Part shown: piece after piece, positions 1 through 61,016 of the stretch
Layout of the letters: the number at the start of each line of letters is the position of its first letter
Numbering within the stretch: position 1 is the stretch's first letter
DNA from: Candidatus Kapaibacterium sp.
GTDB taxonomy: Bacteria; Bacteroidota; Ignavibacteria; Kapaibacteriales; UBA4661
Direction of reading: 5' to 3'
Length of the DNA: 61,143 bases
NCBI GenBank assembly: GCA_004292595.1
Contig: RDXM01000096.1
Coordinates: 1-61,143 of the forward strand
Translations under genes and position numbers: made by a program
The notes under the pieces: generated by a model
The model's database searches: none
Seen by the model: the letters and a program-made list of their open reading frames with translations, nothing else
What the model was told of the DNA's origin: nothing

Positions 1-185
1 GGTCATGATTTTTTAGGACGCAGATGAAGATGATTGAATGGATGAAGATGATGAAAATGCAGAAAACATCAACAACGGATGAAGTCTGCATTCACGCTCT
101 GATTTTTTTTTTATCAATATCATCTTCATCCATTCAATCATCTTCATCTGCGTCCCCTCTTCATTGTTGAGACCTGACCAGTTAC
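1..185. repeat. MITE-like inverted-repeat element, family E, copy 1 (cut by window edge)
   Basis: Near-identical to the element at 58997-59189 and in the same orientation. It ends in GACCTGACCAGTTAC, the right terminal repeat of the intact copy; about the first 11 bases lie before the window. Inside is a long inverted repeat: the arm starting GACGCAGATGAAGATGAT near 19-54 is mirrored by the arm ending ATCATCTTCATCTGCGTC near 119-154. An inner pair, AATGCAGA/TCTGCATT, is nested within. No reading frame of note, so it is non-autonomous if mobile. Confidence 0.85.
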
Positions 186-7555: not shown

Positions 7556-7732
7556 AGGAAGGCTCAAAAATTAAATGGATAAACTTCAACAATATTTAGT
7601 GGCACAGACATTCCTGTCTGTGCGTGTTGGTGCGGGCTTCAGGCGACGACGTGCGGGCTTCAGGCGACGACCACAGACAAGAATGTCTGTGCCACTACTG
7701 ACTTGAACCACTTATTTTTTTACCATTCCTTA
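7556..7732. repeat. Palindromic repeat family A, copy 1 (long form)
   Basis: The hairpin core at 7598-7696 starts AGTGGCACAGACATTCCTGT and ends in its complement, GAATGTCTGTGCCACT. Outer flanks (GGAAGGCTCAAAAATTAA... and ...ACCACTTATTTTTTTACC) are shared with the copies at 36461 and 61048, giving an element of about 177 bp. The loop contains a 21-bp unit, GTGCGGGCTTCAGGCGACGAC, twice in tandem, where the copy at the window end has one. The rest of the gap to 7874 shows no gene. Confidence 0.85.
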
Positions 7733-34645: not shown

Positions 34646-34717
34646 GTGGCACAGACATTCTTGTCTGTGAGTCTTTATCAGAGTTTGAAGAATCACAGAC
34701 AAAAATGTCTGTGCCAC
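34646..34717. repeat. Palindromic repeat family A, copy 2 (core only)
   Basis: GTGGCACAGACATTCTTGTC at the left and GACAAAAATGTCTGTGCCAC at the right, with a loop of about 25 bases. It lacks the outer flanks of the long form. Sits between the NtrC-type gene and RNase P RNA. Confidence 0.8.
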
Positions 34718-34835: not shown

Positions 34836-35338
34836 CGTGGAAGAATAGGTGATTGCGCTGCGTGAGGCTGAAAAGCCCGCGTGGTGAGGAAAGTCCGAAC
34901 TTCACAGAGCATCGCGCCGACTAACGGTCGGACGGTAAGCAGTGCGCGGAACGAAGCGATGAAGCCGCACACAGCAAGCCGATGGAAAGTGCAACAGAAA
35001 AGATACCGCCAGCACGGCAAAGAAATTCGCAAGAAGAACGTTGCCATGCAGGTAAGGGTGAAATGGTAAGGTAAGAGCTTACCGCACACGTGGCAACACG
35101 GCGTGGCATGGTAAACCCCGCGAGAAGCAAAGCCAAGTATGAATGCACTACTGCAAATGTACCAGCACACGCAGTATGTATGCGGCTCGTGTAAATGTTT
35201 GTTCGCGCAATGGCGCAAGCCTTTGCCAAAGCAAACGGTGTATTCGGGTAGGCTGCACAAGATAAATAATCACCTCTTTGCTTGGAAGCCGCTTCCTTCC
35301 TTGCGAAAAGACAGAATTCGGCTTATCATTCTTTCACG
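34836..35338 (+). ncRNA. rnpB: RNase P RNA (bacterial class A)
   Basis: Catalytic RNA that trims tRNA 5' leaders with the RnpA protein. The core is recognisable: GAGGAAAGTCCGAACTTCAC at about 34887-34906 (P4/CR-I), GGTAAGGTAAGAGCTTACCGC, CGTGGCATGGTAAACCCC, GAAGCAAAGCCAAGTA, GGGTAGGCTGC and ACAGAATTCGGCTTAT at about 35311-35326 (CR-V). CGTGGAAGAAT at 34836 pairs with ATTCTTTCACG at 35328-35338 as helix P1, fixing both ends. About 503 bases is longer than usual. The excess sits in the P15-P17 region (about 35135-35245), closed by GAATGCAC/GTGTATTC. An overlapping ORF is disregarded. Confidence 0.93.
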
Positions 35339-35548
35339 ATTTTTTTATTATTATGCGCATTCTGTTATGGGTATGCGCTGCGCCGATGCGCTCACCGACC
35401 CCGAAAATAAAAAACCTCAAACACAAGATGGTATCTGGCTTGTAGGGAAAATTAGCCAAAAGTGTAAACATCAAAAAACAAGCCTCAACACACGGTACTC
35501 TCTTGCTTGGAAGCACGTCAAAAAGGATTGTAATTACACATCTTCACT

Positions 35549-36461: not shown

Positions 36462-36602
36462 GAAAGCTCAAAAAGTAAGTGGATAAACTTCAAAAAGTGG
36501 CACAGACATTCTTGTCTGTGAGTGTTAGCGCACGTTTCAAGCACCAAACACAGACAAGAATGTCTGTGCCACTACTGACGTTAATCATTTATTTTTTTCC
36601 TT
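36461..36602. repeat. Palindromic repeat family A, copy 3
   Basis: Hairpin core 36496-36573 (AGTGGCACAGACATTCTTGT / ACAAGAATGTCTGTGCCACT) with outer flanks GGAAAGCTCAAAAAGTAAGT and CATTTATTTTTTTCC, matching copy 1. It abuts the stop codon of the small membrane protein and ends about 20 bases before recF. Confidence 0.85.
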
Positions 36603-58565: not shown

Positions 58566-58617
58566 TCCTTCGCTCACATATCACATATTGTGCCGCATTT
58601 TCTTCCCAATAACTATT

Positions 58618-58989
58618 ATGTCTGTGGTAAAGCAACAAGCCGAACACCTCATTGACCGCCTGATTGCTGCCTACAATGCGCGTGATGCTGACGCATTTGC
58701 GAATTGTTTTGCCGATGATGCGGTGATTTATGAGCATCCAAATTTTCCAAAGCAAGTACAAAAGGCAGAATTTTTGGAATATTACGTCAAGCTCTTCAAA
58801 GAATTTCCGCAGAATCACACCGAGCGGTTGTATCGCGCCGTGATTGACAATCGCGTTATTGACCATGAGCTTGTCATGCGCACACCAGAATCGAAGCCCT
58901 TCGAGGTGCTGACGATTTATGAAGTGCGCAATAATCTCATTCAGCGCGTTGATTTTGTCCGTAATACCACTACGGCGTGGAAAGTATAG
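58618..58989 (+). CDS. SnoaL/NTF2-like small protein
   Basis: 123 residues with the cone-shaped NTF2 pattern: an N-terminal helix, LIDRLIAAYNARDADAFANC followed by FADDAVIYEHPN, a central helix (EYYVKLFKEFPQ), and sheet strands ending VLTIYEVRNNLIQRVDFVR. The family includes isomerases, dehydratases and ligand-binding proteins, so no reaction can be given. Its stop codon overlaps the GAAAGCCT target duplication of the family E element, which inserted at the gene's very end. Confidence 0.8.
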   Translation: MSVVKQQAEHLIDRLIAAYNARDADAFANCFADDAVIYEHPNFPKQVQKAEFLEYYVKLFKEFPQNHTERLYRAVIDNRVIDHELVMRTPESKPFEVLTIYEVRNNLIQRVDFVRNTTTAWKV

Positions 58990-58996
58990 AAAGCCT

Positions 58997-59189
58997 GTCA
59001 CTGGTCAGGTCATGATTTTTTTTGGACGCAGATGAAGATGATGGAATGGATGAAGATGATGAAAATGCAGAAAATATCAACAACGGAGGAAGTCTGCATT
59101 CACGCTCTTATTTTCTATCACTATCATCTTCATCCATCCAATCATCTTCATCTGCGTCCCCTCTTCATGGTTGAGACCTGACCAGTTAC
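58997..59189. repeat. MITE-like element, family E, copy 2 (intact, with 8-bp target duplication)
   Basis: 193 bp. Terminal inverted repeats read GTCACTGGTCAGGTC and GACCTGACCAGTTAC (14 of 15 complementary). Flanking GAAAGCCT at 58989-58996 and again at 59190-59197 is a perfect 8-bp direct repeat, as left by many transposases. The interior has the long GACGCAGATGAAGATGAT hairpin seen in copy 1. No coding capacity. Confidence 0.92.
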
Positions 59190-59246
59190 GAAAGCCTATA
59201 GAAAGCATAATTTTTGTGATTTTTCTCTTTTTTTCTCTTCCTCCTC

Positions 59247-61016
59247 ATGCGCGAACTTCTCCGCCTCAAGCCCTATTTCATTCGCCACAAGTGGATGTTT
59301 TTTTCGGGAATGATATTCGTTACGATTTCCAATATCTGCTCAACGTCGCTTCCGCGTATTGTCGGTAAAACAGTGGATTCGATTGCAGGAAAAAACGGCA
59401 TTGTCTTCACTTCCAGCGATATTGCCTTGCACATAGGAATCATGCTGCTTCTAACGGCAGGAAGTGGATTTTTTATGTTTCTGACGCGCAAAACAATCAT
59501 CGTTGCCTCGCGGCACATCGAATACGAACTTCGGCGCGATGTGCTTGCAGCACTCGAACGCTTGCCTCTGCGCTACTTTCAGCGCACCCCGACGGGTGAA
59601 CTTATGGCATATTCCACCAATGATATTTCCGCCATTCGGGAGTTTTTTGGTCCGGCAGTGATGTATTCTGCCAATACCATTACGACCTTTATTTTCGCGC
59701 TGACGATGATGATTGCGCTCTCGCCGATTATCACCATCGCTGCGCTTTTGCCCATGCCGTTTGTATCGTTTGCTGTCTATCGAATTGGCTCGCGGGTGCA
59801 TCAGCTCTTCAAGGACGCGCAAGACCACTACGCAAAAATGACCGCAAAGGCGCAAGAAAACTTGTCGGGTGTGCGCGTGATTCGTGCCTACGGGCGCGAA
59901 GAAGATGAAATTGCGGCATTCCAAACCATGGGCGAAGGCTATTTGCAAAAAATGCTCCGCCTTGTGAAAATTGAAGCCGTGATGATGCCGCTTATGATTG
60001 CCTTGATAGGCTTATCGCAAGTATTGGTGCTGGGTGTGGGCGGATATTTGGTCATCAACGGCAAAGCCACGATTGGCGACGTTACGCAGTTTTTCATTTA
60101 TCTTGGTTTGCTGATTTGGCCCGTTGTTGCTATTGGCTGGGTAACAAATCTTATCCAACGCGCAGCCGCTTCCACAGGGCGTTTGGGGCGTGTTTTCGAT
60201 GAAGTATCGGAAATTGCCGACACCGAAGCAACGAACCACGCTATTACGGACGTGCAAGGGAATATTGAGTTTCGCAATGTGCGCATGAAATACGCACCAC
60301 ATCTCCCCTTCGCGCTTGGGAGCGAAGCAGCAGAAATTTCGTTTCGTATCAAACAAGGCGAAACCATTGGCATTGTCGGCGAGACGGGAAGCGGCAAAAC
60401 AACGCTCGTGAACCTGATTCCGCGCCTCTTCGACGCAGGCGACGGCGAGGTGCTGATTGACGGGCAGCCAATTCGCTCAATGCCTCTTCAAACCTTGCGC
60501 CGAAACATCGCCATTGTTCCCCAAGAATCGTTCCTTTTTTCCATGACCATTGCCGATAACATTCGCTTTGGCAATCCTCATGCTTCAATGGATGATGTCG
60601 TGGAAGCCAGCATTCTTGCGCAGTTGCACGAAAATATCAAAACCTTTCCCGAAGGGTTTGCTACGATGGTCGGCGAGCGCGGCGTAACCTTGTCGGGCGG
60701 ACAGAAACAGCGCACGGCGATTGCCCGCGCTATTATCAGCAATCCAAAAATTATTATTTTCGATGATTCTCTTTCGGCAGTTGATACCGAAACCGAAGAG
60801 CGCATTCTGCACGGCTTGAAAAAAGTGATGGAAAACCGCACCAGTATTATCATTGCGCACCGCATCTCGACGGTGAAACACGCCGATATGATTCTTGTTC
60901 TGAAGAACGGAATGATTGCCGAAGAAGGCAGCCACGACGCGCTCTTGGCACGTGGCGGCATCTATGCAGATATGTACTCGCGGCAGCTTTTGGAAGCGGA
61001 AATTTCGGCGATGTAG
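59247..61016 (+). CDS. ABC exporter half-transporter with degenerate ATP site
   Basis: 589 residues: a six-helix exporter domain (about 1-310), then one nucleotide-binding domain. Walker A GETGSGKTT is near 377-385, the signature LSGGQKQR near 481-488 is intact, and the H-loop is IIAHRIS. Walker B is IIIFDDSLSAVD, with Asp507 where the catalytic Glu is expected. DDSLSAVD is typical of the degenerate subunit of heterodimeric exporters (BmrC/YheI, TM287 type), so a partner half is expected, probably past the window end. Substrate unknown; multidrug or lipid export are common for the group. Confidence 0.93.
   Translation: MRELLRLKPYFIRHKWMFFSGMIFVTISNICSTSLPRIVGKTVDSIAGKNGIVFTSSDIALHIGIMLLLTAGSGFFMFLTRKTIIVASRHIEYELRRDVLAALERLPLRYFQRTPTGELMAYSTNDISAIREFFGPAVMYSANTITTFIFALTMMIALSPIITIAALLPMPFVSFAVYRIGSRVHQLFKDAQDHYAKMTAKAQENLSGVRVIRAYGREEDEIAAFQTMGEGYLQKMLRLVKIEAVMMPLMIALIGLSQVLVLGVGGYLVINGKATIGDVTQFFIYLGLLIWPVVAIGWVTNLIQRAAASTGRLGRVFDEVSEIADTEATNHAITDVQGNIEFRNVRMKYAPHLPFALGSEAAEISFRIKQGETIGIVGETGSGKTTLVNLIPRLFDAGDGEVLIDGQPIRSMPLQTLRRNIAIVPQESFLFSMTIADNIRFGNPHASMDDVVEASILAQLHENIKTFPEGFATMVGERGVTLSGGQKQRTAIARAIISNPKIIIFDDSLSAVDTETEERILHGLKKVMENRTSIIIAHRISTVKHADMILVLKNGMIAEEGSHDALLARGGIYADMYSRQLLEAEISAM

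Follow-up and report, generated by a model that had tools for sequence, protein, structure and literature searches.

A MITE with probable IS66-type ends in Candidatus Kapaibacterium sp., and the occurrence of its hairpin core between a second set of ends

The 193-bp element described here, from a contig of Candidatus Kapaibacterium sp., is a true MITE that has transposed repeatedly. We consider it highly probable that the reading as a whole is correct, namely that this is a MITE belonging to the ISBst12 group of the IS66 family, served by a transposase acting in trans and built around a hairpin core separable from its ends. A core of the same type lies between unrelated ends in a related genome.

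Results

Anatomy of the element

The stretch of DNA analysed, referred to below as the window, is the entire contig C40 (61,143 bases) of a genome (G000) of 4.6 Mb in 199 contigs. The element occupies 58997-59189 and is bounded by 15-bp TIRs complementary at 14 of 15 positions, GTCACTGGTCAGGTC on the left (58997-59011, plus strand, differing by one base from the family form GTAACTGGTCAGGTC) and GACCTGACCAGTTAC on the right (59175-59189), which is GTAACTGGTCAGGTC on the minus strand. Two copies of the 8-bp TSD GAAAGCCT flank it at 58989-58996 and 59190-59197, and the limits given in the preliminary description (58989-59197) are thus right. Between the TIRs, all on the plus strand, follow a left spacer ATGATTTTTTTT (59012-59023), hairpin arm 1 (GGACGCAGATGAAGATGAT..GGATGAAGATGAT, 59024-59060), a variable loop (59061-59122), hairpin arm 2 (59123-59159) and a right spacer CCTCTTCATGGTTGA (59160-59174), to which the left spacer is not complementary over its length. 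The long internal hairpin noted earlier is real: the arms, 37 nt each, are 95% complementary, and folding of the element as single-stranded DNA gives -53 kcal/mol, where shuffled sequences give -20.9 +/- 3.0 (z = -10.8). No coding gene lies within its 193 bp, and it is, being short and bounded by TIRs, a MITE. The left TSD begins on the final base of the stop codon that closes the ORF at 58588-58989, and the next ORF after the element, starting at 59247, is ABC-transporter-like by its motifs.

A second copy of the same family and orientation was said to begin the window, and it is present at 1-185 (plus strand), its left end shortened by 11 bases at the contig start; C40, which the window covers in full, therefore starts within a MITE copy. 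Contigs C13, C82, C92, C147, C150, C164, C166 and C180 of this genome, and others, also begin or end inside the MITE, often near the centre of the hairpin about 97 bases in, and the palindromic repeat seems to break the assembly.

Evidence for transposition

A genome search placed the family at about 40 places in its own genome, and the TIR pattern had 112 matches there at up to 2 mismatches, compared with 19 for the reversed pattern. Among all 74 elements that have these ends and a length of 90-400 bp in the loci fetched from this genome and its congener G005, the 8-bp TSD is perfect in 39 and has one mismatch in 14 more, against a chance level of 0.06% estimated from mismatched pairs, that is, between different elements. 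Perfect duplications of other lengths numbered 0 at 9-12 bp and 1-2 at 4-7 bp in the same set, and the duplicated 8-mers are A+T-rich. Long flanking homology between copies, which the preliminary description gave as evidence against transposition, did not appear: comparison of the 300-bp flanks of 23 copies yielded 0 matches. At the orthologous locus of the congener (G005:C6) both neighbour genes are present and the element is absent, with 80% identity to the window flanks joined in silico. The TSDs, the unrelated flanks and the empty orthologous site together confirm repeated transposition, and bear out the earlier view of an intact MITE with 15-bp ends and an 8-bp duplication.

Under a simple gene model, 18 of the 23 copies lie outside ORFs, compared with 14% of random positions. 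The remark that both window copies lie just past a gene end is right for those two; it fails as a rule, given that 12 of the 18 intergenic copies sit between tandem genes, 5 between divergent genes and 1 between convergent genes.

Different cores between the same ends

At least eight different cores are found between these ends in genomes G000, G002 and G005. For this grouping we took elements with these ends and a TSD of up to 2 mismatches and clustered them by score per length, single-linkage clustering having joined most cores through short matches. The largest group, GACGCAGATGAAGATGAT, comprises 27 elements, 20 with a perfect TSD, and the group CGTCGGGCGGC comprises 18, with 12 perfect; two groups are CCCGTCCTACGC-like, a 202-bp group has perfect TSDs in 5/5 and CACGAATCACACGAATT in 4/4, GGAACGCGGAT and GACGCAGATTACCATGATT form further groups, and the remaining cores are singletons. 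A distant relationship may link the core groups that contain a stretch of ACGCAGAT or ACGCGGAT. The window-type core contains an 18-bp periodic part; in a decayed copy at about 900-1000 of locus L202 (G005:C4:113500-115500), one arm has expanded into tandem repeats of ATCATCTTCATCAATCCA, the 18-bp unit.

Another core, AGTGGCACAGAC..GTCTGTGCCACT, is found within several outer contexts, and the window has it too. As separate observations, three further hairpins of the window, at 7597-7697, 34646-34717 and 36496-36573, have the core AGTGGCACAGACATTCTTGTCTGTG.., and two of them share similar outer sequence, AARTGGATAAACTTCAA / TTATTTTTTT, which is maybe a third MITE frame. A core similar to AGTGGCACAGACATTCTTGTCTGTG is found elsewhere within TAGGACTTTCGC ends, and the CACAGAC core also lies near GTACACGACAAAA / TTTTGTCGTGTAC (L094, 1532-1603 and 2782-2853; L060, 596-666), possibly another set of ends. 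One CACAGAC hairpin of the window adjoins a bacterial RNase P RNA of class A (34837-35341).

The same core between a second set of ends

In the congener G007, which is another species, a GACGCAGATTGAAGATGA core of the GATGAAGATGAT type stands between the unrelated TAGGACTTTCGC ends at three loci (L032, L034 and L193). These ends form a second frame, with about 100 end matches in the genome of the window and a duplication of 5 bp (perfect in 16/30, against 0.6% in controls), for which a TA duplication was considered and rejected; two of the three G007 elements have 5-bp duplications, TAGAT and TATAC. The second frame is abundant in G000 and G007, with the TIR TAGGACTTTCGCAAAA, a 5-bp duplication and lengths of 112-180 bp (for example L060:767-889, L236:111-224 and L240:1500-1613), and its palindromic cores include CACAGGCAAGAATGCCTGTG, CAAGGGGTCAAGACCCCTTG and GGAGTGCGGAAT.

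The core match between G007 and the window type might be thought a coincidence of two simple GATGAAGATGAT repeats, with no shared module behind it, considering that the core contains the 18-bp periodic part and that short low-complexity matches occur across the phylum. We regard this as unlikely. The match scores 50-64, where shuffled sequences average 17-19 (z 10-19); it holds for both arms and both orientations, includes the non-periodic GGACGCAGAT, and stops near GGACGCAG with the ends unmatched. When 395 genomes of the phylum were searched for the core, those outside the genus gave just weak low-complexity matches of 21-47 bases. No related repeat sequence turned up in a text search of the literature.

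Nesting does occur in this family, since at L060 of the window's own genome a second-frame element with the duplication CATTT lies within the loop of a first-frame element. The G007 elements, however, are without the inner first-frame ends that a nested copy would keep. Different cores in the same ends and the same core in other ends indicate that cores and ends behave as modules. The hairpin with its 37-nt arms is a unit separable from the ends. The most likely cause of the pattern would be that the middle of an element is replaced and its ends are retained, through recombination or through template switching from one hairpin to another. More broadly, hairpin cores in this genus might be cassettes passing between unrelated transposon ends, the 8-bp IS66-type, the 5-bp TAGGACTTTCGC type and perhaps others, with ends and core evolving independently of each other, and a symmetric end swap could arise from copying one hairpin arm onto the other; to this broader proposal we give roughly even chances.

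The ends and the presumed transposase

The ends of the MITE, GTAACTGGTCAGG(TC), are those of IS66-family elements of the ISBst12 group: they match the group's end form GTAACTNCTCAG / GTAACTGGTCAG, resemble group ends across about 13 bases, and share the 8-bp duplication. An IS66 coding end lies directly beside these ends in three genomes. In the congener contig G001:C491, with IS66 pieces detected by PF03050 (E 5.6e-11 and 3.2e-5) and NF033517 (E 3.9e-20), it directly adjoins GTAACTAGTCAGGTC; in the window's own genome, at C11:8546, ATAACTGGTCAGGTC adjoins a decayed frame that aligns with the same transposase end as G001:C491 (a weak profile match, NF033517 E 0.017, below Pfam detection); and in an Ignavibacteria contig an IS66 C-terminus, 76% identical, is closed by a stop codon with the exact end GTAACTGGTCAGGTC just behind it. 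The IS66 sequence of G007 has the related end GTACCTGGGTCAGGTG, and full-length relatives of 1525-1569 bp, from Caldilineaceae and Dictyobacter, end in GTAACTACT-type sequence and are flanked by a perfect 8-bp TSD. The coding ends and the full-length relatives, together with the ends of ISDge4 discussed below, point to ISBst12-type IS66 ends as the most likely identity of the MITE ends.

The preliminary description suggested a search for a transposase ORF with the same ends. No intact IS66 gene was found in the window's own genome, where the decayed remnant at C11:8546 lies beside them. By profile search, none was found in G002 and G005 either, and G000, an incomplete assembly of 199 contigs, has no PF03050 match over the cut-off; across 61 relatives PF03050 found just fragments, all within the genus, among them those of G001 and G007. 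No transposase was seen beside the isolated ends examined in G000 and G005, and a plasmid collection gave no match. The contigs of G001, G007 and the Ignavibacteria genome break off within the IS66 gene or beside it. The parent element may be unassembled or lost in the window's own genome, as a multi-copy IS may be missing from an assembly. An autonomous partner usually accompanies a MITE in its genome, though the strict definition does not require one.

The MITE itself contains no IS66 transposase, and we saw no internal sequence common to it and IS66, the ends alone matching. With no transposase inside and the same ends beside transposase remnants, the MITE is a non-autonomous derivative by its ends, rather than an IS66 element. 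We infer that the MITE is mobilised in trans by an IS66 protein, the product of a single-ORF transposase gene of IS66 type located elsewhere. This protein would recognise the ends of about 15 bp, GTAACTGGTCAGGTC, and would insert the MITE, duplicating 8 bp of target, into DNA that is rich in A+T and mostly intergenic.

Duplications of 8 bp are made by several transposase families, for example IS256, IS1595, ISAs1 and ISL3, and one of these might move the MITE, its IS66-like ends having arisen by chance, a scenario to which the lack of an intact IS66 gene in the same genome lends something. Against it stand the ISBst12-like ends over about 13 bases and the IS66 coding ends directly beside the same ends in three genomes, and we judge it quite improbable.

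Conservation and possible roles of the hairpin

Across 21 copies the paired parts of the stem arms are conserved at 98.8-99.2%, the TIRs at 94-96.5%, the loop at 91% and the bulges at 83-89%. Changes on both sides affect 3/47 stem pairs, so that compensatory change is weak, and selection on the stem cannot be told apart from copying of one arm onto the other. Within the element, Rfam gave only weak matches, mostly to plant microRNA hairpins; all were far below the gathering scores of their families and were rejected as generic long hairpins. An intrinsic terminator was also rejected: a T8 run precedes the long hairpin and no T-run follows it on either strand, and the hairpin is thus not a standard terminator. 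A terminator or regulatory-RNA role of the MITE is unsupported. That the hairpin is nevertheless a functional unit of either kind, kept by selection and only incidentally bounded by transposon ends, might be argued from its stem arms being the most conserved part (the loop at 91%), its very stable fold and the insertion directly after a stop codon, yet the insertions without bias to gene ends, the orthologous locus without the element, the double changes in so few stem pairs, the Rfam result and the missing T-run make it very improbable indeed.

Discussion

ISDge4, a member of the ISBst12 group that has been seen to transpose, ends in GTGACTACTCAGCA / GTAACTGCTCAGCA with a repeat of 8 bp (PMC12898284), and the MITE is like it and its group in both the ends and the 8-bp duplication. 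The members of the group differ from it in being autonomous, with a transposase gene, whereas the window MITE is geneless and has the ends alone in common with them. In our search of the literature we found no IS66-derived MITEs and no earlier report of the window MITE; IS66-derived MITEs seem to be little reported.

Bacterial MITEs derived from IS elements are known, for example MITECca01 from IS982 (PMC9769881), which is likewise short and geneless, with IS-like ends and many copies. The parental IS982-family element of MITECca01 is intact in the same genome (PMC9769881), in contrast to the decayed remnant of the presumed parent here, and the present family differs also in the many different cores within the same ends. 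BrickBuilt of Porphyromonas gingivalis is, by its abstract (PMC4596501), another intergenic MITE with a periodic core, the period being 23 bp there and 18 bp here; its sequence differs, and the abstract mentions no exchange of cores between ends. The mosaic, Tn3-derived TIMEs (PMC4133298) are similar in combining one set of ends with different cores and in having A+T-rich targets, but their ends are Tn3 ends of 38 bp with 5-6-bp duplications and their cores are gene modules (PMC4133298), where ours are hairpins.

Movement by RAYTs (REP-associated tyrosine transposases) is not expected to leave TIR-TSD insertions. We considered and rejected an identification of the element as a REP or REPIN moved by a RAYT, since it has TIRs and an 8-bp TSD. 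REP, BIME and REPIN sequences (PMC3116915, PMC2817692) are also palindromic, dispersed and present in many copies; they are attributed to RAYTs, unlike the window MITE with its TIRs and TSDs.

At a practical level, the MITE would be the cause of many breaks between contigs in genomes of this kind. What is surprising in the finding is the exchange of cores from one end system to another. The interior of a MITE says little about which transposase moves it, and core exchange between end systems with different duplication lengths would be a concrete, testable case of bacterial MITE diversification.
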